Shown: positions 1-23,835 of the stretch, piece by piece | Position numbering within the stretch: the stretch's first letter is position 1 | How the letters are laid out: every line of letters starts with the position of its first letter | Source: Acidimicrobiia bacterium | GTDB taxonomy: Bacteria; Actinomycetota; Acidimicrobiia; Acidimicrobiales; Acidimicrobilacustridaceae | Assembly: GCA_020832495.1 (NCBI GenBank) | Contig: JAFIEP010000014.1 | Location: 1 to 60,870, forward strand | DNA: 60,870 nt | Direction: 5' to 3' | Notes under the pieces: generated by a model | The model's database searches: none | Seen by the model: only the letters and a program-made list of their open reading frames with translations | Told to the model about the DNA's origin: nothing | Made by a program: the position numbers and the translations under genes

Positions 1-1882
1 TGTTGTTGTCGATCATCCAGGCGATGGCGTCGGCGAAGGGGTGGCTGGGGCCGACGTCGGTGAAGGTGGTGCCGGGGGTGGTGGTGGGTGTGGGTTGGCC
101 GGCGGCGCGCCAGAGGAAGGCGGCGGTGGCTTGGCGGGTGACGTTGGCGGTGGGTCGGAAGGTGCCGTCGGGGTAGCCGGTGGTGATGTTGTTGTCGATC
201 ATCCAGGCGATGGCGTCGGCGAAGGGATGGCCGACGCCGACGTCGGTGAACACCGTCACCGGCAGGAGCGGTTGGTCCGAACCGATGGCGGCAAGCGGGG
301 TCAGACCCAACGCCAGTACCCCCTGCGTGGTCGCCCGTCGCCACTGGTCGCGCGCGCTCACGTCGCCGGTGCCGATCCCGCTCTCGAGGGCGGCCGCCAG
401 CGCTCCTGGGTTGTAGCCCAGTGCGCCGATGTCGTCCGCTGCCGCGCCAGCCGATCCGTCGAGGAGCTGCAGCGAGCGGATCCAGGCGGCGGCAGCCTGC
501 GCGTCGGCCGATCGGCCGACGGCGCTCAGGGCGGCGCCGGCCAACCCCGTGCTGTTGGCGTTCGCAGCCGCGGTGACGGCCGTGCCCCCGAAGGCCCCGG
601 TTCCCGGGTCCTGACGCGACAAGGTCCACAGCACGGCGTCACGCAGCGCTGCGGCGACAGCCGGTGTGCGGGGCAGTCCCACCAGCGCCCCGATGGCCAG
701 GAAGGTGCCGTCAGCATCGACCTGGGTGTCGGTCACACATGCGGGATCGCCGACGTAGAACAGTCGGAACCCGCCGCTGGGGCACTGTTGGGCCAACAGG
801 AACGACACCACCGCGTCGGGCACCCCGGCGTCGGTGCGCTCCAGGCCGAGCACGGCGTAGGCCTGTGAGAAGCCGTTCGACAGGTCGCCGCTGCCCGGGT
901 CGGCCAGTTGGTCGGCCACCCGGCCCGCCCACGGTCCGTCGGTGACCACGAGCGACCGGACCTCGGCCTCGAGGTCCCAGCCGTCGACGTCGTGCACGTC
1001 CCGCCCGGCGGCGGCGTAGGTGAAGAGTGCCTTGGTGAACGGCCCGGCGAAACGATCCTCACCGAAGGTGGTGTAGGCGCTGAGCTCCGCAGTGACCTGA
1101 TCGAACGCAGCCACGGTGGCCGGGGTGTGGGTCCGTCCGCCGGCGGCGAGCGCCAGCAGGGCGTCGAGGGTCACCCCGATCTCGAGGGTCCCACCGAAGC
1201 CCTCGAAGATCCCGCCGCTGGTGTCGAGCTGGCCTTCGATCCACTCGAGAGCGGCGATCGCCTCGGCGGACAACGCTGAGGCCCTGCGCTCGACGAGGTC
1301 GGCGAGTCCCACCCGAGGCGCCTGGGTGTCGAAGGCCTCGGCCCACGACAGGGCAACGATCGCATCGACGGGCAGCGGTCCCGACCCGAGACCGAGTTCG
1401 CTGAAGGCCCAGCCGGGCCCGGCGACGTCCCAACCGTTCGGCAGCGCCCAGTACGACCAGAACCCGCCGGTGATCCAGCAGTGCGGGTAGCCCTCGGTGG
1501 GCCGTCCGTCGATGGTGCACACGGTGCCGGCGCCCGACTCGGAGGTGGTGGTGAAACCGGCGGCGGCCAGCGCCGCCAGCCCGCTGGGCTGCTCGCCGGG
1601 CGCACAGCGCACGTGCACCTCGTCGGCGAGGGCGGTGAAGTCGACCACCAGGGTCACGCCGGCTCCCGGGGCGCAGGCGACACCCGTGATGGTCGGGGCG
1701 GTCGAGGCGGCAGCGGCCGGTGCCACTCCCGGGACTGCCGCCATGAGGAGCAACAGGGTGAGCCACACCGACACAGTGGTGGCGCTGCCGGGACGGTGGT
1801 GCCTGCGCTGAGGTGCCCGGTGGGTGGGCGGCGCGTCGTTGCCTCGGATGGTGTCGACGATGGCGGGGCGGGGAAGGGGCAC
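1..1882 (-). CDS. SLH-anchored transcobalamin-like surface protein (3' end off window)
   Basis: This gene runs off the left edge, so only its first 627 codons are visible. I chose the GTG start because AGGAGG lies four bases upstream. After a hydrophobic signal segment (residues about 40-60), residues about 72-165 form a DUF4430-like (transcobalamin C-terminal-like) beta domain: VTLVVDF, a cysteine near the strand after it, then WSYW and GWAFSE. Residues about 170-535 are alanine/leucine-rich helical repeats with GGF-type turns (for example SGGFRLF), resembling the prenyltransferase/squalene-cyclase alpha/alpha toroid. From about residue 545 there are SLH repeats (FTDVGVGHPFADAIAWM, GYPDGTFRP, VTRQ). 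A cobalamin riboswitch precedes it. I infer an extracellular B12-capture protein bound to cell-wall polymer; binding itself is not shown by sequence. Confidence 0.82.
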   Translation of the reverse strand, partial: MPLPRPAIVDTIRGNDAPPTHRAPQRRHHRPGSATTVSVWLTLLLLMAAVPGVAPAAAASTAPTITGVACAPGAGVTLVVDFTALADEVHVRCAPGEQPSGLAALAAAGFTTTSESGAGTVCTIDGRPTEGYPHCWITGGFWSYWALPNGWDVAGPGWAFSELGLGSGPLPVDAIVALSWAEAFDTQAPRVGLADLVERRASALSAEAIAALEWIEGQLDTSGGIFEGFGGTLEIGVTLDALLALAAGGRTHTPATVAAFDQVTAELSAYTTFGEDRFAGPFTKALFTYAAAGRDVHDVDGWDLEAEVRSLVVTDGPWAGRVADQLADPGSGDLSNGFSQAYAVLGLERTDAGVPDAVVSFLLAQQCPSGGFRLFYVGDPACVTDTQVDADGTFLAIGALVGLPRTPAVAAALRDAVLWTLSRQDPGTGAFGGTAVTAAANANSTGLAGAALSAVGRSADAQAAAAWIRSLQLLDGSAGAAADDIGALGYNPGALAAALESGIGTGDVSARDQWRRATTQGVLALGLTPLAAIGSDQPLLPVTVFTDVGVGHPFADAIAWMIDNNITTGYPDGTFRPTANVTRQATAAFLWRAAGQPTPTTTPGTTFTDVGPSHPFADAIAWMIDNN

Positions 1883-1892
1883 AGTGCCTCCT

Positions 1893-1918
1893 GGTGCTGC
1901 GCCGACGGTCCCAGCACC
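1893..1918 (-). promoter_or_regulatory. hairpin next to the RBS of the SLH gene
   Basis: On the minus strand GGTGCTG and CAGCACC form a perfect 7-bp stem with a 12-nt loop that ends directly before the AGGAGG ribosome-binding site. It lies between the minus-strand cobalamin riboswitch and the start codon, so it is a candidate part of the expression platform. The switching mechanism is inferred. Confidence 0.4.
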
Positions 1919-1999
1919 CCTCGCCGCCACGGGCAGGCCGCGGCATCGGTGGATCCTGGCTCCGACGCCGTAGACCTCGACGGTGTGGTGGAGCCGCTG

Positions 2000-2180
2000 C
2001 GTCTCCGGTCGGGTGTTCCGACTCGGCCCCGGGCCGGGTGGCCGGGGCTCCACGGTTGCGGGTCAGTGCCGGAGTCGTACCGGACTTCCCCCCACCGGAG
2101 GCATGGTGGCAGGGGCCGCCGGCGGTGGCCGACCCCGCCGGGACGCTACCGGTGCCCTCCCCGTGGCGCAACCGTCCGCC
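2000..2180 (-). promoter_or_regulatory. cobalamin riboswitch (minus strand)
   Basis: Reading the minus strand, positions about 2090 to 2050 carry the B12-box core: GGAAGTCC, then a tetranucleotide turn, then ACTCCGGCACTGACCCGC followed by AACCGTGG. The conserved 3' closing segment GAGTCGGAACACCCGAC lies at about 2025-2009. Both match the cobalamin riboswitch (AdoCbl class) consensus I know. The outer boundaries are approximate because I did not fold the RNA. It would control the SLH-anchored transcobalamin-like gene about 120 nt downstream. Confidence 0.88.
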
Positions 2181-2194
2181 GCTGTGGTCGGTGA

Positions 2195-2340
2195 CGAACC
2201 GAGGCTGCTTGCCGGGTGGCGGATCGGTGTGGGACGCTTCTGTCACAAGTAACGCCGCGTGGTGGGGGAAGCCGGTGAGAGCCCGGCACTGACCCGCAGC
2301 CGTGTGAGCCTCTTCGGAGGCTCGAGTCGGAATGCCCACC
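2195..2340 (+). promoter_or_regulatory. cobalamin riboswitch (plus strand)
   Basis: Positions about 2267-2303 contain the B12-box core (GGAAGCCGGTGAGAGCCCGG, then CACTGACCCGCAGCCGTG). Positions 2322-2339 carry the 3' conserved segment GAGTCGGAATGCCCACC. It abuts the divergent minus-strand riboswitch almost back to back. It would control the surface-protein/ECF operon starting at 2457. Confidence 0.9.
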
Positions 2341-2400
2341 GCACAGCGATGCTTCGTGCTCATCCGTCGAGGACCGCGGAGACCGAAGCCTGTCGGAACC

Positions 2401-2450
2401 GTGGGCAGCCTTCCCACGTCCTCCCCAGGCGATCGGAGCCGGAGGAGGAT
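2401..2450 (+). promoter_or_regulatory. putative riboswitch expression platform (SD-sequestering)
   Basis: Two local pairings are visible between riboswitch and start codon. GTGGG (2401-2405) can pair with CCCAC (2413-2417), and GTCCTCC (2418-2424) can pair with GGAGGAT (2444-2450), which is the Shine-Dalgarno sequence of the gene at 2457. This would allow control of translation initiation. No U-tract follows, which argues against a classical intrinsic terminator. The mechanism is inferred. Confidence 0.5.
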
Positions 2451-2456
2451 CACCCC

Positions 2457-3575
2457 ATGCCCGCAGCCCGTCGACCAGCCGGTCGGCGATCGGCGCGCCT
2501 CGGTGCGCTGCTGGTGGCCGTCGCTGTGGTCGGCGTCGTCGGGCTGTCCTCATCGGCTGCGTCCTCGGTACCTGCCCCGTCGACCGACGAGGCCAGGTCG
2601 TGGACCTCGGGACCGTGTCCGACCACCGCCGGCGTCACCGTGGTGGTCGACCTCACCGCGTTCGATCTGGGGATCCACGTGCGCTGTGCTCCCGGTTCGC
2701 CGTCGAGCGGTTTCGCTGCGTTGGCCGGCGCCGGGTTCGAGCACCGCACCGCCGTGCGGTCGCCCGGGTTCCTGTGTCGGATCGACGGCCACCCCGCTGA
2801 CGACCCCTGTGTCAACGCGGCACCGGCCTCGGCCTACTGGTCCTATTGGCTGGCCTCACGGGGTGGGCAGTGGTGCTACAGCAACCTCGGGGCCGGCAAC
2901 CGCCAGCCACCGCCCGGCACCGTGGAGGGCTGGTCGTTCTCTCGCAGCACGTCGGGCGCGCAGGCCGCGCCGCCGGGTGTGGCGCCCCCACCGCCCCCAG
3001 CCGGTACGAGCACCCCGTCGCTGGGGTCGGGGGACTGCGACCCGGCGGTGGCGCCGACACCGACGACCACCACGACCACGATCCGGCCGCCCACCACGAC
3101 GCGTCCGTCGGCACCGAGCGGCGGGAATGGCCACAGCAGCGGGCCGTCGAGCGGCGGTACTGCGCCGAGCGGCCCCGTCGTTGCACCCGCTGCTCCGAAC
3201 GATGCGGCGCGAACGTCGCCGACCACGGCGCCGTCGACCACCACGACCACGAGCGAACAGCGCACGACCACCACCACGGCCGGAGCACAGGCGGACGCGT
3301 TCGATGCGGAGGCCCCCAGCGGCGCACAGCGCGTCGACGGTGCCGGTGACCTCACCGAGGAGGAGACGACGCGCCGCGCGTCGCGGTCCGACGCCGCCGA
3401 GGTCGACGACGAGGCTGCCGCGGGGGTGACCATCGTCGACGAGGACGGCGGTGGCAGTTTCCCCACCGGAATGGTGGTCGGTGGTGCCCTGGTGGCCAGT
3501 CTCGGCATCGGGGCGATCGTCACGAGCCGTCGTCGCGACGTCGACGGCCCGTCGGCCGAGTTGGGCTCGTCGTGA
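2457..3575 (+). CDS. DUF4430-like surface protein, first gene of B12-riboswitch operon
   Basis: A 372-residue exported protein. The ATG was chosen over upstream in-frame codons because GGAGGAGG lies just before it and because earlier codons fall inside the riboswitch. It has a signal peptide (residues about 15-38) and a DUF4430-like domain (about 50-165: VTVVVDLTAF, two conserved cysteines, WSYW, WCYSN, EGWSF) clearly related to that in the divergent SLH protein. A long Pro/Thr/Ser linker (about 175-300) follows. The C terminus has an SFPTG motif, a hydrophobic helix and an RRRD tail, resembling a wall- or membrane-anchor signal. It overlaps ecfT by four bases (GTGA), so it is co-translated with the transporter. 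I infer that it presents cobalamin to the transporter. Confidence 0.85.
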   Translation: MPAARRPAGRRSARLGALLVAVAVVGVVGLSSSAASSVPAPSTDEARSWTSGPCPTTAGVTVVVDLTAFDLGIHVRCAPGSPSSGFAALAGAGFEHRTAVRSPGFLCRIDGHPADDPCVNAAPASAYWSYWLASRGGQWCYSNLGAGNRQPPPGTVEGWSFSRSTSGAQAAPPGVAPPPPPAGTSTPSLGSGDCDPAVAPTPTTTTTTIRPPTTTRPSAPSGGNGHSSGPSSGGTAPSGPVVAPAAPNDAARTSPTTAPSTTTTTSEQRTTTTTAGAQADAFDAEAPSGAQRVDGAGDLTEEETTRRASRSDAAEVDDEAAAGVTIVDEDGGGSFPTGMVVGGALVASLGIGAIVTSRRRDVDGPSAELGSS

Positions 3576-4816
3576 ACGCCTTCGGCGGGTCGCGCACGGC
3601 GCTACGCCTGCCTCGCCCGTTGCACCCGGGTGCGTGGTGGCTGTGGGCGCTCGGCATGGCCACCGCCGCCAGCCGAACCACCAACCCGCTGCTGCTGGCC
3701 TTGCTCATCGCCGTCGTTGCCCAAGTGGTGGCTGCCCGACGAACCGACGCTCCGTGGGCCCGCGGGTTCAAGGCCTACATCATCTTGGGATTGGTGGTGA
3801 TCGCCATCCGGGTGGTGTTCCGCATGCTGCTCGACGGCCAGCACGGCACCCACGTGTTGTTCACCCTGCCCGAGATCCCGTTGCCCGAGGCGGCCATGGG
3901 TATCCGACTGGGCGGCCCCGTCTCGCTCGAGGGCGTGTTGGCCGCCTTCTACGACGGGCTGCGGCTGGCCACCCTGCTCATCTGCATCGGGGCGGCCAAC
4001 GTGCTGGCCAATCCCAAACGGTTGCTGGCTGCCATTCCGCCGGCGCTCCACGAGGTGGGGGTGGCCATCACCGTGGCGCTCACCATGGCGCCCCAGCTCC
4101 TCGAGAGCGGTCAGCGGGTGCGACGGGCCCAGCGCCTGCGGGGTGACGCCCCCGGGCGGGTGGAGCGTCTGCGACGCATCGTGGTGCCGGTCCTCACCGA
4201 CGCATTGGACCGCTCGCTGCTGTTGGCCGCCGCCATGGACTCCCGCGGCTACGGCCGCCGCGCTCAGGTGCCGACGCGCACGCGCCTGGTGGTCAGCGCT
4301 CTTGTGCTCGCCGGGCTGGCCGGCGTGGCCGTCGGCACCTACGGGCTGCTCGACGCCACCACCCCCGCTGCGCTGGGCCTGCCCGTGGTGGCCGTGGGTC
4401 TGCTCCTCGCCGGGGTCGGACTGTCGGTCGGCGGACGTGGGGTGCGGCGGACCCGCTACCGACCCGATCCGTGGCGCGCCCCGGAATGGGGAGTCGCGAC
4501 CACTGGTGCGCTGGTGGCTGTGGCCCTCGTCGTCATCGGCGGGATCAACAGCGCGGGGCTGCACCCCTCGGTGCAGCCGCTCGAGTGGCCGACGCTGCCA
4601 CCCCTGGCCACCCTGGCCATCCTCGTCGGACTGTTGCCCGCCGTACTGGCCCCGCCGGTGCGGCCACCCACGCCGCGCCGTCGTGTGGCAGTCGACAGCT
4701 CAGCCGCTTCGTCCACGTCGACCACCGGACGGGGTGCCAGGGCGAGTTCCGGCTCGGACGCCGCCTCGGGCGACGACATCGCTCGACCGCCGGTCGTCGT
4801 GGAGGTGCGCACGTGA
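3572..4816 (+). CDS. ecfT: ECF transporter T component (EcfT)
   Basis: The 414-residue membrane subunit couples the ATPase to the substrate-binding S subunit in energy-coupling-factor transporters. It has several hydrophobic segments (for example about 15-75, 115-145, 230-285, 310-360). An EcfT coupling-helix signature is visible around residues 215-232 (AAAMDSRGYGRR; the family has an A-x-x-S/A-R-G motif touching the ATPase). It starts with GTG in a 4-base overlap with the upstream surface protein and ends in a 4-base overlap with the ATPase gene. An alternative reading as a generic CbiQ-family protein is equivalent. Confidence 0.92.
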   Translation: MNAFGGSRTALRLPRPLHPGAWWLWALGMATAASRTTNPLLLALLIAVVAQVVAARRTDAPWARGFKAYIILGLVVIAIRVVFRMLLDGQHGTHVLFTLPEIPLPEAAMGIRLGGPVSLEGVLAAFYDGLRLATLLICIGAANVLANPKRLLAAIPPALHEVGVAITVALTMAPQLLESGQRVRRAQRLRGDAPGRVERLRRIVVPVLTDALDRSLLLAAAMDSRGYGRRAQVPTRTRLVVSALVLAGLAGVAVGTYGLLDATTPAALGLPVVAVGLLLAGVGLSVGGRGVRRTRYRPDPWRAPEWGVATTGALVAVALVVIGGINSAGLHPSVQPLEWPTLPPLATLAILVGLLPAVLAPPVRPPTPRRRVAVDSSAASSTSTTGRGARASSGSDAASGDDIARPPVVVEVRT

Positions 4817-6441
4817 TCACCTTCGACCACGTCAGCGTCCGCTATCCCGACGCCGACCATCTGGCCCTGGTCGACGTGGAGCTGCACATCGACGAAGGCG
4901 AGCTGTGCCTTGTCACCGGCCGCACCGGCGTGGGCAAGTCGACGCTGTTGGGGGCCATGTCGGGCCTCGTTCCCCACTTCACCGGCGGCCACCTCAGCGG
5001 CCGTGTGGTGGTGGCCGGTCGCGACACCGCCTCGCACCCGCCACGGGAGCTGGCCGACGTGGTCGGCGTGGTCGGACAGGATCCATTGGCCGGCTTCGTG
5101 ACCGACGACGTGGAAGCAGAGCTGGCCTACGGGATGGAGCAGCTGGCCGTGTCACCGGCGGTCATGCGCAAGCGGGTGGAGGAGACACTCGACCTGCTGG
5201 GCATCGCCGAGCTACGCAGCCGCCCGCTGCGCACGTTGTCGGGTGGTCAACAGCAGCGGGTGGCCATCGGGGCGGCGCTCACCGCCCAACCCCGCGTGCT
5301 GGTGCTGGACGAGCCCACCTCGGCGCTCGATCCCACCGCCGCCGAGGACGTGCTGGCAGCCATCACCCGGCTGGTGCACGACCTGGGCATCACCGTGGTG
5401 GTGGCTGAGCATCGACTCGAGCGGGTGGTGCAGTACGCCGACGTAGTGGCCGAGGTGCTGGCCGACGGTTCGGTTCGCTACGGGCCGCCGGCGGAGTTGC
5501 TGCGTGACGCGGCGGTGGCGCCCCCCGTGGTCCACCTGGGGCGGCTGATGGCGTGGGAGCCCCTGCCGCTGTCGGTACGCGACGCCCGCCGCCGCGCCAC
5601 CGTCCTGCGCCAGGAGTTGGCCGATCGCCCGCAGCCGCTCCGAGCGTCGGTGCGCCCTTCGGGGGCGCCGCTGCTCGCCACTCGGCGGTTGTCGGTGACC
5701 CACGGCGCCGTGGTGGCGGTGCGCGACGTCGATCTCGCACTCGCCGCCGGTGAGGTCACGGCGCTCATGGGTCGCAACGGCGCCGGCAAGTCGTCGCTGC
5801 TGTGGGCCTTGCAGGGCAGCGGTTCGCGCCACAGCGGTTCGGTGTCGGTCGACGGCCGTGACCCGGCCGAGCTGCCGGCGGCGGAGGGGCGCCGGCTGGT
5901 GGGTCTCGTCCCACAGACACCGGCTGATCTGCTCTACCTCGAGTCGGTGGCTGCCGAGTGCGCTTGCGCCGACCAGGAATCCGGCCAACCCACCGGAGGC
6001 TGCGCGGCACTGCTCGACCGTCTGGTGGTGGGCATCGACCACCAGGCCCACCCCCGAGACCTCTCCGAAGGTCAGAAGCTGGCGTTGGTGTTGGCTGTGC
6101 AACTCACCGCCCGTCCCCAGGTGGTGTTGCTCGACGAACCCACCCGGGGGCTGGACTACGACGCCAAGGAGCGCCTGGTCGAGGTGCTCGGCGAGTTGAC
6201 CAGCCAGGGCCGCTCCGTGGTGGTGGCCACCCACGACGTCGAGTTCGTTGCCGCTGCCGCCGACCGAGTGGTGGTGCTGGCCGACGGCGAGGTGGTGGCC
6301 GACGGCCCGACGGCCGAGGTGGTGGTGGCCTCGGCGGCCTTCGCCCCGCAGGTGGCCAAGATCCTCCATCCCGAACCGTGGTTGACGGTGACCGAGGTGG
6401 CCGACGTCCTGCGGAGCAGCGCCGAGCGGGTGGCACCGTGA
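4813..6441 (+). CDS. fused ECF transporter ATPase (EcfA-EcfA')
   Basis: 542 residues with two complete ABC domains in one chain, replacing the usual two ATPase subunits. Domain 1: Walker A GRTGVGKST (about 36-44), signature LSGGQQQRVAIG (about 142), Walker [14 protein letters not shown] (about 163). Domain 2: Walker A GRNGAGKSS (about 319), a divergent signature LSEGQKLALVLA (about 417), Walker B VVLLDEPTRGLDYD (about 437). The GTG start overlaps the ecfT stop by four bases; an upstream extension of the frame is only a shadow of ecfT. It energises uptake of the substrate bound by the S component at 6438. Confidence 0.94.
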   Translation: MITFDHVSVRYPDADHLALVDVELHIDEGELCLVTGRTGVGKSTLLGAMSGLVPHFTGGHLSGRVVVAGRDTASHPPRELADVVGVVGQDPLAGFVTDDVEAELAYGMEQLAVSPAVMRKRVEETLDLLGIAELRSRPLRTLSGGQQQRVAIGAALTAQPRVLVLDEPTSALDPTAAEDVLAAITRLVHDLGITVVVAEHRLERVVQYADVVAEVLADGSVRYGPPAELLRDAAVAPPVVHLGRLMAWEPLPLSVRDARRRATVLRQELADRPQPLRASVRPSGAPLLATRRLSVTHGAVVAVRDVDLALAAGEVTALMGRNGAGKSSLLWALQGSGSRHSGSVSVDGRDPAELPAAEGRRLVGLVPQTPADLLYLESVAAECACADQESGQPTGGCAALLDRLVVGIDHQAHPRDLSEGQKLALVLAVQLTARPQVVLLDEPTRGLDYDAKERLVEVLGELTSQGRSVVVATHDVEFVAAAADRVVVLADGEVVADGPTAEVVVASAAFAPQVAKILHPEPWLTVTEVADVLRSSAERVAP

Positions 6442-7478
6442 CGGCGGCGGCGCGTCCCGTGGGCGCCGAGGGAACCGATGGCCGGCGGGGCCGCGACGGG
6501 CGCCGGGGAGCCGGGCGCCGCTCAGCGAACGGAGCTCGTCGGCGCTCGGCCATGGCGCTCGGCTGGCAGCCGGCCCTGGTGCTCGGCGTGGTGTCGCTCA
6601 TCGGGGCGGCCATGTTCGCCTGGCCGCTGCTGTTGCAGCCGCCCGACGAGTTCGCTCACACCAGCGACGCGCCGTTCGTCTTCGTGCTCATCCTTCCCAT
6701 GCTGTTGGCCGTGGTGTTGTCGGAGGTGCACCGCGGCGGGCTCGACACCAAGGCGTTGGCCATGCTGGGCGTGCTGTCGGCCATCGGGGCGGTGCTGCGG
6801 CCCATGGGGGCCGGCACGGCGGGCATCGAGTTGGTGTTCTTCTTGTTGGTGCTCGCCGGACGTGTCTACGGCCCTGGGTTCGGGTTCGTGTTGGGCTGCA
6901 CCACCATGGCCAGCTCAGCGCTGCTGACCGGCGGCGTCGGCCCGTGGCTGCCGTTCCAGATGTTGGCCGCCGGGTGGGTGGGCCTCGGTGCGGGTCTGCT
7001 GCCGTGCCATCGCCTGCGGGGCCGCGCCGAGATCGCGTTGCTGGCCGCCTACGGGGCGGTGGCTGCGTTCGCCTACGGCTTCGTCATGAACCTGTGGTTT
7101 TGGCCGTTCACCTTGGGCGCCGGAACGCAACTGTCGTACGTGGTCGGGGCGCCGCTGCTCGAGAACCTGCACCGTTTCGTGCTGTTCACGTTGGCCACCT
7201 CGGCGTGGGGGTGGGATCTCGGACGGGCGCTCACCAACGTGGTGGCCATCTGTCTGCTCGGACCGGCGGTGCTCGTCGTGTTGCGTCGCTCCGTACGGCG
7301 GGCCAGCTTCGGGGCGCCGGTGACCTTCTCGCCGGGGACTGCGTCGGCTGTGCCCGCCCGGGCGGTGCTGGCATCCGCTCTGCCGGCGTCGAGTGCCGTC
7401 GCCGAACCGGTCGACGATGGCACCGGTGCGTCGCCACTCGGGCGAGCACCTGGCGACCGGTCCCCGCCCTCCGCCTGA
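6438..7478 (+). CDS. ECF transporter substrate-specific (S) component, probably cobalamin
   Basis: A 346-residue membrane protein whose GTG start overlaps the ATPase stop by four bases. A basic, low-complexity N terminus (about 1-40) precedes six or so hydrophobic helices (about 45-65, 72-92, 100-130, 140-165, 185-215, 250-285). It includes the glycine/aromatic stretch around GAVLRPMGAGTAGIELVFF seen in large actinobacterial ECF S subunits. An Ala/Pro/Val-rich tail follows. Substrate assignment rests on the riboswitch and the transcobalamin-like neighbours, not on a recognised binding motif. Confidence 0.85.
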   Translation: MTAAARPVGAEGTDGRRGRDGRRGAGRRSANGARRRSAMALGWQPALVLGVVSLIGAAMFAWPLLLQPPDEFAHTSDAPFVFVLILPMLLAVVLSEVHRGGLDTKALAMLGVLSAIGAVLRPMGAGTAGIELVFFLLVLAGRVYGPGFGFVLGCTTMASSALLTGGVGPWLPFQMLAAGWVGLGAGLLPCHRLRGRAEIALLAAYGAVAAFAYGFVMNLWFWPFTLGAGTQLSYVVGAPLLENLHRFVLFTLATSAWGWDLGRALTNVVAICLLGPAVLVVLRRSVRRASFGAPVTFSPGTASAVPARAVLASALPASSAVAEPVDDGTGASPLGRAPGDRSPPSA

Positions 7479-22095: not shown

Positions 22096-23835
22096 ATGCA
22101 CCGGGAACGGCAACGCCCGAGGCGAACGCTGGTGGCGGTGGCGGTCGTCCTCGCTGTCGTGGCGGCGCTCCTGGCGGCATCACCATCGTCAGCGGCGCAC
22201 CGCTACGTCGACGTGCCGGCGACGCACCCGTTCCACGACGAGATCTCGTGGATGACCGACTCGGGTCTGGCCGCAGGGTTCTCCGACGGGACGTTCCTCC
22301 CGGGCGCCAGCGTCAGTCGGCAAGCCATGGCGGCCTTCCTCTACCGCCTGTGGGGCGCGCTCGAACAGCCCATCGTCCCGGCGAGCGACGCCGGGTTCAC
22401 CGACGTCGGTGCGGACCACCCCTTCGTGGCCGAGATCGGCTGGATGGCAGAGTCTGGTATCGCCTCGGGCTACGCCGACGGCACCTTCCTCCCCGGCGCG
22501 CCGGTCAGTCGCCAGGCCATGGCAGCCTTCCTGGCCCGCTTCTGGGAAGCCACCGGTGGCGCGGTGCCGCCCCTGCCGAGCGATCCCGGGTTCAGCGACG
22601 TCCCGCTCACCCACCCGTTCTGGGGCTCGATCGCCTGGATGGCCGGCGCCGGGATCACCACCGGGTTCTCGTCCGGCGAGTTCCAGCCGACCGCGCCGGT
22701 CAGCCGCCAGGCCATGTCGGCGTTCCTGCAACGACTCGGCGTCGCAGCTGGGTTGCCGGCTCGTCCGCTGGTGGATGTGACGTGGACGGTCGCCAACCAG
22801 ACGGTGGTGGTAGAGGACGTCGCACGACGGAATAGCGGGCTCGACATCTGGGTCGACGGGAACATCGGGTTCCTCGATGCGGGATCCGAGGTGCGGGGCA
22901 TCGCGGCCAACGGCAGCCGCCCGGCCCGTTGGACGGTGGGAGACGAGGCCTTCCTGGCGGAGGTGCTCGATGCCGGCTCACCGATCGTCGGCCTGCCATC
23001 GGACGTCGAGTACGCCGCCGGCGGCCCGGTGTACCGGGACCCCGACTCGGGCGCGGTGTTGCTCTTCTACCATGGGGAGAAACGCCGGATGGGCCAGTTC
23101 TCGGTGCTGAACTTCTGGTCGTTCGTCGGGTTGGCGATCTCGCACGACGACGGCGACACGTTCACCGACCTCGGTCCGATCGTCACCCCGCACCTGGGGC
23201 AGAACGATCCCGGGACCGGCGGCTGGTCGGTGGGGGTCGAGGTTGGCGGCGCTCCCTACGTCGTGGTGGGTGACTACTTCCACGTGTACTACCGGGATGT
23301 GGTGGTCGACGAGTTGTTCACGTCGGCACTGAACGTCTCGGTGGCGCGGGCCCCCGTCGACGAGGTGGTGGAGGCTGCCCTGGCGGGCGGCGCTGCGGAG
23401 TGGATGAAGTTGGGAGCCGACGGCTGGGACCAGCCCGGGCTCGGCGGCCGTGGCACCGAACTGGTGCCGCCGGGGCCGACGACGAACTGGTTCGATGTTG
23501 CCTACCTGGTGGACCACGACCTCTATGTCTTGGTTGCCTCGAGCGGTTCAGGACTGAACTGGTCGGTATGGGCAACGGTGAGTACCGACGGCATCGTGTG
23601 GACACCGCCGCGGCTGGTGCTCGAGGACCCCGAAGGTCGAGAGTCGCTCTACGTGTCGCTCAGCTCTCCAGACCGCCGCTCCCAGCGGCAGGTCGTCGGC
23701 GACGTGGTGCACGTCTACCGCACCCGCTCCACGGTGGACGAGGGGTTGCGGACCCGCTGGTCGGGTGACGTCACCATCGAGCGGTTCGACCTGCGCCTCG
23801 TCGAGGTGCTGCCACCGAAACGCAACGGCTCGTGA
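22096..23835 (+). CDS. SLH-anchored beta-propeller glycosidase-like protein
   Basis: 579 residues; ATG chosen because a signal peptide follows (VAVAVVLAVVAALLAASPSSA). Three SLH repeats (about 36-90, 95-150, 155-215; each with F-x-D-V and GxxDGTF-x-P-type motifs) should bind wall polymer. Residues about 230-575 form a repeated beta-sheet domain (DIWVDGNIGFLD, GGPVYRDPDSGAVLLFYHGE, NFWSFVGLAISHDDG, YVHVYYRDV) resembling five-bladed GH43/sialidase-like propellers. I could not identify a catalytic pair. It overlaps the next paralogue by four bases. Confidence 0.78.
   Translation: MHRERQRPRRTLVAVAVVLAVVAALLAASPSSAAHRYVDVPATHPFHDEISWMTDSGLAAGFSDGTFLPGASVSRQAMAAFLYRLWGALEQPIVPASDAGFTDVGADHPFVAEIGWMAESGIASGYADGTFLPGAPVSRQAMAAFLARFWEATGGAVPPLPSDPGFSDVPLTHPFWGSIAWMAGAGITTGFSSGEFQPTAPVSRQAMSAFLQRLGVAAGLPARPLVDVTWTVANQTVVVEDVARRNSGLDIWVDGNIGFLDAGSEVRGIAANGSRPARWTVGDEAFLAEVLDAGSPIVGLPSDVEYAAGGPVYRDPDSGAVLLFYHGEKRRMGQFSVLNFWSFVGLAISHDDGDTFTDLGPIVTPHLGQNDPGTGGWSVGVEVGGAPYVVVGDYFHVYYRDVVVDELFTSALNVSVARAPVDEVVEAALAGGAAEWMKLGADGWDQPGLGGRGTELVPPGPTTNWFDVAYLVDHDLYVLVASSGSGLNWSVWATVSTDGIVWTPPRLVLEDPEGRESLYVSLSSPDRRSQRQVVGDVVHVYRTRSTVDEGLRTRWSGDVTIERFDLRLVEVLPPKRNGS

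Follow-up and report, generated by a model that had tools for sequence, protein, structure and literature searches.

A predicted SLH-anchored protein with a transcobalamin-type beta domain and an alpha/alpha toroid beside a riboswitch-led ECF operon in an actinobacterial genome

The window analysed here, 60,870 nucleotides of DNA from an Acidimicrobiia bacterium, is the whole of contig C57 in a 4.46 Mb draft genome (147 contigs, 97% complete). At its first bases lies gene A, which is read on the minus strand from a GTG at 1882, with AGGAGG four bases before the start (by eye), and stays open up to the contig edge; because the window is the entire contig, the gene is cut there. On the plus strand run gene B and the genes of an ECF importer. 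The features discussed below are as follows.

1..1882, minus strand: gene A, SLBB-toroid-SLH protein, 627 residues visible, C-terminus cut at the contig edge
1706..1882, minus strand: putative signal peptide, residues 1-59 of gene A (basic start, hydrophobic core, Ala-rich end; by eye)
1325..1705, minus strand: transcobalamin-type beta-grasp (SLBB) domain as modelled, residues 60-186 of gene A (structure model, family alignments)
263..1327, minus strand: alpha/alpha toroid, residues about 186-540 of gene A (Pfam below cut-off, structure model)
86..250, minus strand: first SLH repeat, about residues 545-599 of gene A (Pfam)
2..76, minus strand: second SLH repeat of gene A (Pfam), cut by the contig edge and probably going on in contig C6
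2010..2094, minus strand: second cobalamin riboswitch aptamer, gene A leader (relaxed Rfam, lineage model)
2220..2364 (Rfam 2243-2357), plus strand: cobalamin riboswitch aptamer, leader of the importer operon (Rfam, lineage model)
2457..3575, plus strand: gene B, exported SLBB-domain protein, distantly of the SCO2322 family, with a Thr/Pro/Ser-rich stalk and a C-terminal hydrophobic segment by eye
3572..4816, plus strand: CbiQ-type ECF T subunit (Pfam)
4813..6441, plus strand: double ECF ATPase with two ABC stretches (Pfam; start approximate)
6438..7478, plus strand: ECF S component, PF12822 (Pfam; start approximate)

Gene A reads in the order signal peptide, beta domain, alpha/alpha toroid, SLH repeats. 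Residues 60-545 were modelled with high confidence (pLDDT 92.2, pTM 0.85) from 54 aligned proteins, which comprise gene A, seven beta-first fusions and a set of toroids and SLBB domains and which all come from the window or from the loci of our set of actinobacterial relatives. For residues 60-540 the sequence-only reading had proposed a transcobalamin-like pairing with the beta domain ahead of the toroid; frame and model have this order, and the structure models contain both folds and no unrelated one. The gene, its domain order and its confident fold models are established here, together with the riboswitches and the association with the importer operon in actinobacterial relatives.

The beta domain of gene A is, in its structure model, clearly of the transcobalamin type by fold. 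A separate model of the domain alone, built from 70 SLBB rows, reached a pLDDT of 85.2 and a pTM of 0.82, and in the comparison with transcobalamin that had been suggested for it the domain aligned best with B12 carriers and one bacterial structure: the 15 best VIA rows (Z 8.7-10.6 over 92-97 residues; the next row scored 5.9) hold 14 transcobalamin, haptocorrin or intrinsic factor entries and 3u7z, and the alignment with 2bb5 gave Z 9.1 and 2.8 A over 94 residues. VIA compared 269 chains taken from Foldseek's own list and is thus a second look at the same candidates; in Foldseek itself the same group of B12 carriers and 3u7z fills the top 19 rows at modest E-values, from 0.036 to 0.73 with none below 0.001. 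The title of 3u7z is that of a putative metal binding protein, and we take it to be a DUF4430 protein. The secondary structure assigned to the model by DSSP (E16-22, E29-36, H42-48, E53-55, E62-65, E82-87, E116-122) is compatible, in its order of elements alone, with a beta-hairpin inserted after a conserved helix, a trait of the transcobalamin-like SLBB clade.

The domain had also been called DUF4430-like from the letters of the sequence, a label that Pfam does not bear out. Pfam DUF4430 (PF14478), presumably the sequence model for the transcobalamin-like SLBB clade, matched nothing in the genome, in gene A or in any of the 70 SLBB rows, and was dropped as a label; the beta domain of gene A is without any Pfam match, and the 70 SLBB members gave no relevant Pfam match. 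A PDB sequence-profile search with SLBB profiles returned no transcobalamin or other relevant match. When SLBB profiles were compared with those of the DUF4430 domains of the phylum, the match was weak and collinear (27% local, 6% global probability), with a score of 26.3 against a best of 21.2 among 30 column-shuffled controls, in a comparison that is selective because a motif filter kept 12 of 25 loci. Canonical DUF4430 is present in 51 of 296 sampled genomes of the phylum and absent from this one, so the phylum contains SLBB proteins of two kinds. DUF4430 serves as a name for TCN proteins (PMC4350170).

The toroid has a Pfam Prenyltrans match at residues 341-497 that scores 19.6 bits, below the 26.5-bit cut-off, and aligns in VIA with a squalene-cyclase-type toroid at Z 24.5 (3.1 A, 270 residues). 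Cyclase, complement and macroglobulin toroids were returned by a PDB profile search with the whole protein, and structurally the toroid is closest to terpene cyclases and enzymes that act on sugars. Transcobalamin is absent among the rows listed by Foldseek and VIA for the whole two-domain model, which is no counter-evidence because the toroid fills the list. PF01122, the eukaryotic Cobalamin_bind model, does not match gene A; it weakly matches 8 of the 54 alignment rows (best E 0.0042), and more of these rows match the squalene-cyclase (28), prenyltransferase (28) and complement-TED (15) models. One could read the toroid as a secreted class II terpene cyclase-type enzyme with the beta domain as an accessory module, given that the nearest solved toroids are cyclases and that 30 of 32 toroid rows keep the D-x-D part (first and third Asp) of DXDD, which we take to be the class II terpene cyclase motif. 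The fourth position of this site is, however, Asp in 0 of 32 toroid rows, gene A is an exported and wall-anchored protein by its predicted signal peptide and SLH repeats, and toroid genes occur alongside cobalamin riboswitches and the genes of an ECF importer, all of which makes a cyclase extremely improbable in our judgement.

Two divergent cobalamin riboswitches lie between gene A and gene B. The plus-strand copy (RF00174) scores 42.5 bits, over the Rfam gathering threshold of 31.5, and is the sole match in the window at the curated threshold; it runs into gene B and the ECF operon, away from gene A, and is ruled out by its strand as the controller of gene A. The minus-strand copy scores 22.8 bits at 2091-2011 with relaxed Rfam settings, under the gathering threshold, and was recovered at 48.8 bits (E 4.4e-12; next window match E 1.1) by a lineage model built from ten riboswitches, namely the plus-strand copy and nine from other loci (two of the nine from the same genome), with the minus-strand copy left out. 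This match covers positions 47-122 of the 148 in the model and leaves the 5' part unmatched. The proposal that gene A stands under a B12 riboswitch is therefore borne out by the minus-strand aptamer and not by the strong plus-strand one, which points away. In the genome, where 150 of 7727 first-look candidates were scored, the lineage model gave four matches at E <= 0.001, two on C57, one on C54 and one on C58; three of the four were in the alignment of the model, Rfam confirms the same three, and a toroid or SLBB gene lies downstream of each of the four.

The riboswitch-led genes on C54 and C58 also read as toroid proteins, as scored by a toroid profile that contained neither of them.

L046 (C54), 3159-4871, plus strand: toroid-then-SLBB protein, toroid 126.6 bits, putative lipoprotein (lipobox, by eye)
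L047 (C58:44000-52000), 3110-5251, minus strand: toroid with three SLH repeats behind a riboswitch, toroid 74.5 bits

The C58 protein has neither a Pfam toroid match nor an SLBB match. In the C54 protein, which stands behind its cobalamin riboswitch, the toroid precedes the SLBB domain as in vertebrates; both domain orders thus coexist in one genome, since gene A is beta-first.

The locus has counterparts elsewhere in the actinobacteria. Within the order, a match at E <= 1e-6 was found in 11 of 248 genomes, this one included, a patchy distribution; in the 24 other genomes of the family there was none outside the SLH part of gene A among the matches listed. In the ten other genomes of the order, the genes run toroid, SLBB, CbiQ, double ATPase, S component wherever the toroid locus is uninterrupted (8 of 8); one of the remaining two is split over two contigs and the other has just an SLBB gene, on a contig of 4.5 kb. 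We also scanned a genome collection and analysed the best 80 of 254 relatives, all with actinobacterial titles. In these 80 loci toroid and SLBB domain are unfused in 67, fused beta-first in 7 and fused toroid-first in 6; an SLBB gene shares the stretch with the toroid in 61 of the unfused loci and is missing from the other 6, some stretches being cut by contig ends, and an SLBB gene is present somewhere in 74 of the 80. SLBB genes adjoin CbiO/CbiQ-type transporter genes in these relatives as they do in the window, with all three ECF parts in 62 of the 80 loci and any ECF gene in 69. In 69 of the 80, the lineage model found a same-strand riboswitch no more than 900 bases ahead of the best toroid gene. 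Among the other 11, four have riboswitches further up, before another toroid gene, two start at the contig edge, and in one the best match was another toroid gene; L067, L076, L081 and L086 have no riboswitch before the toroid gene by the lineage model, though upstream sequence is present, and in L076 a weak, short match lies downstream. L067 (8437-10650) has the divergent layout of the window, with a DUF4214 tail instead of SLH and no riboswitch found.

SLH anchors had been claimed for gene A, and PF00395 matches it at E 3.8e-14 in two stretches. Contig C6 ends in an exact 47-base overlap with the end of the window and continues as SLH sequence to a stop, on which ground gene A likely has three SLH repeats if C6 follows, a provisional count at the break. 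SLH proteins abound in the genome: gene A draws 176 matches at E <= 0.01, and almost every listed one falls on its SLH part. We considered whether gene A might be mainly a structural or adhesive S-layer protein that neighbours the B12 operon by chance. Against this, gene A has its own riboswitch, and ECF genes accompany the toroid/SLBB pair in relatives even though SLH occurs in 0 of their 80 loci; we regard an S-layer role of this kind as very unlikely. The 80 toroid proteins comprise 28 with LxxTG and a hydrophobic tail, 12 with a tail only, 8 with a motif only and 32 with neither, a typing that is indicative only because it comes from a crude motif script and some frames are cut or too long. 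A further SLH protein lies in the window at 22102-22644 on the plus strand, in an open frame of 621 amino acids.

The sequence-only reading had described the order of domains in gene A as permuted; the reversed order itself is supported, its novelty is not. In a midpoint-rooted tree of 75 SLBB domains over 123 columns, with many unresolved forks and 3 toroid-first rows, gene A groups with solo SLBB proteins, the C54 protein and two further beta-first fusions, a set of 11 rows split from the other 64 with support 100/98, and gene B falls with operon proteins. The starred branches of this tree require that the beta-first label was gained or lost five times or more, and they are incompatible with a single origin of the beta-first fusion without losses. 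Since three arrangements occur in the 80 relatives and at least five gains or losses are needed, the evidence points to gene fusion; circular permutation was set aside in favour of repeated fusion. The reversed order is not new, because the available portion of Burroughs et al. 2007 (PMC1796856) describes bacterial fusion proteins that carry the toroid before or after the beta domain, together with Gram-positive anchor motifs.

The tree also bears on how a binding site would be assembled. The toroid of gene A could pair with the SLBB domain of gene B in one B12 site, leaving the SLBB domain of gene A otherwise employed: 61 of the 80 loci have unfused toroid and SLBB genes in the same stretch, the toroid and SLBB of most relatives, being separate proteins, would have to pair, and the SLBB domains of gene A and gene B fall with solo and operon proteins, respectively. 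The pTM of 0.85 for the fused pair, with both domains confidently placed, suggests otherwise as far as a model can, and we think a site shared between the two proteins unlikely.

Gene B itself matches the SCO2322 family (NF040672) at 27.3 of the 85 bits required. That family matches most SLBB rows (53 of 70 at E <= 0.01), whereas the beta domain of gene A has no match to it; it is a subfamily name without function, and no paper bearing the name was found in the open-access literature among the matches listed.

Taken with the neighbouring importer, these features make it probable that gene A encodes a secreted, SLH-held corrinoid capture protein that feeds SLBB proteins and the ECF importer under riboswitch control. 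The SLH repeats would hold the secreted protein in the cell envelope, and its beta domain and toroid, we infer, would clamp a single corrinoid between them, in the manner of the two transcobalamin domains. The ligand could then be handed to SLBB proteins near the membrane (gene B on its stalk, the C54 lipoprotein) and be taken up by the adjoining ECF importer; a fall in intracellular cobalamin would release the two divergent riboswitches and thereby switch on capture along with import. The genome has MetH (1318 bits) and CobS (149 bits), and CobI/CbiL gave nothing over the cut-off in the 97% complete assembly (best 25.6 of 163 bits), on which grounds the organism uses cobalamin and probably imports it. 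This probable import, the riboswitches and the adjoining importer back a role in corrinoid capture. The same findings are consistent with a broader scavenger whose ligands include, or chiefly are, incomplete corrinoids or other cobamides, a variant of the capture protein and not exclusive of it: with CobS present and CobI/CbiL not over the cut-off, partial corrinoids could be used, and ECF-CbrT of Lactobacillus delbrueckii binds B12 and cobinamide alike, according to the accessible part of PMC5997447. The sequence does not distinguish such a scavenger from a B12-specific carrier, and the riboswitch class is named for cobalamin; we hold the broader specificity to be evenly balanced.

A corrinoid capture protein of this sort is a variant of a kind already predicted, since the available portion of Burroughs et al. 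2007 (PMC1796856) places bacterial SLBB proteins in CbiO/CbiQ operons and predicts B12 scavenging for them. The clade described there resembles the gene A locus in its secreted beta-grasp domain, toroid fusion in either order, anchor motifs, second paralogous SLBB gene, CbiO/CbiQ neighbours and predicted function. It is reported there from low-GC Gram-positives, planctomycetes and some euryarchaea, whereas gene A is actinobacterial, is missed by Pfam DUF4430 and comes with an SLH anchor, cobalamin riboswitches and an ECF S component. As far as we have searched, the SLH anchoring, the twin divergent riboswitches and the Pfam-invisible actinobacterial branch are new: among the matches listed, open-access titles and abstract openings included no SLH-anchored or actinobacterial SLBB-toroid protein, and neither they nor the available portion of PMC1796856 reported an assay of binding by any bacterial member.

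Vertebrate transcobalamin, haptocorrin and intrinsic factor share with gene A the modelled beta-domain fold and an alpha/alpha toroid partner, but have the toroid before the beta domain where gene A has the beta domain first; gene A, for its part, lacks a PF01122 match, is bacterial and predicted to be wall-anchored, and is a corrinoid binder by proposal. Bacteroides has a surface B12-capturing lipoprotein, presumably BtuG, whose fold differs from the transcobalamin-type pair. Such lipoproteins capture B12 ahead of an importer, as we propose for gene A, but in Gram-negative hosts (PMC6143338, from the part available). ECF-CbrT resembles the operon of the window in ECF-type import, with a corrinoid as its substrate; no surface capture protein is described for it in the accessible part of PMC5997447.

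More tentatively, and with less than even confidence, we suggest that the genome possesses a layered B12 line ruled throughout by riboswitches, in which the SLH-anchored toroid proteins of gene A and C58 would stand outermost, the stalked gene B and the lipid-anchored C54 SLBB protein below them, and the ECF importer last. The haem relays that cross the wall in other Gram-positives are an analogue. The carrier of this line would be a two-part clamp reshuffled by bacteria, its halves on separate chains or fused in either order. If so, vertebrate transcobalamin would be a single fixed instance of a domain pair under continual rearrangement in bacteria, both building blocks of the human B12 carriers would belong to a widespread actinobacterial uptake system unseen by Pfam, and Gram-positive bacteria would have a dedicated extracellular B12 carrier. 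The split, beta-first and toroid-first versions would then form a natural set for probing how the transcobalamin clamp works and arose.

Several of the loci carry features of their own. L075 (15568-18669, minus strand) and L079 (535-3561, minus strand) each have a frame of roughly 1000 residues in which the toroid is matched twice. L063 and L065, titled as a Bifidobacterium breve MAG, are toroid-first operons laid out as in L062 and L064, which are from other actinobacteria, and their naming may be wrong. On C54, L046 also holds, at 961-3084 on the plus strand, a DnaB-like helicase frame with an apparent in-frame intein, read by eye from its Cys start and a His-Asn before Ser.
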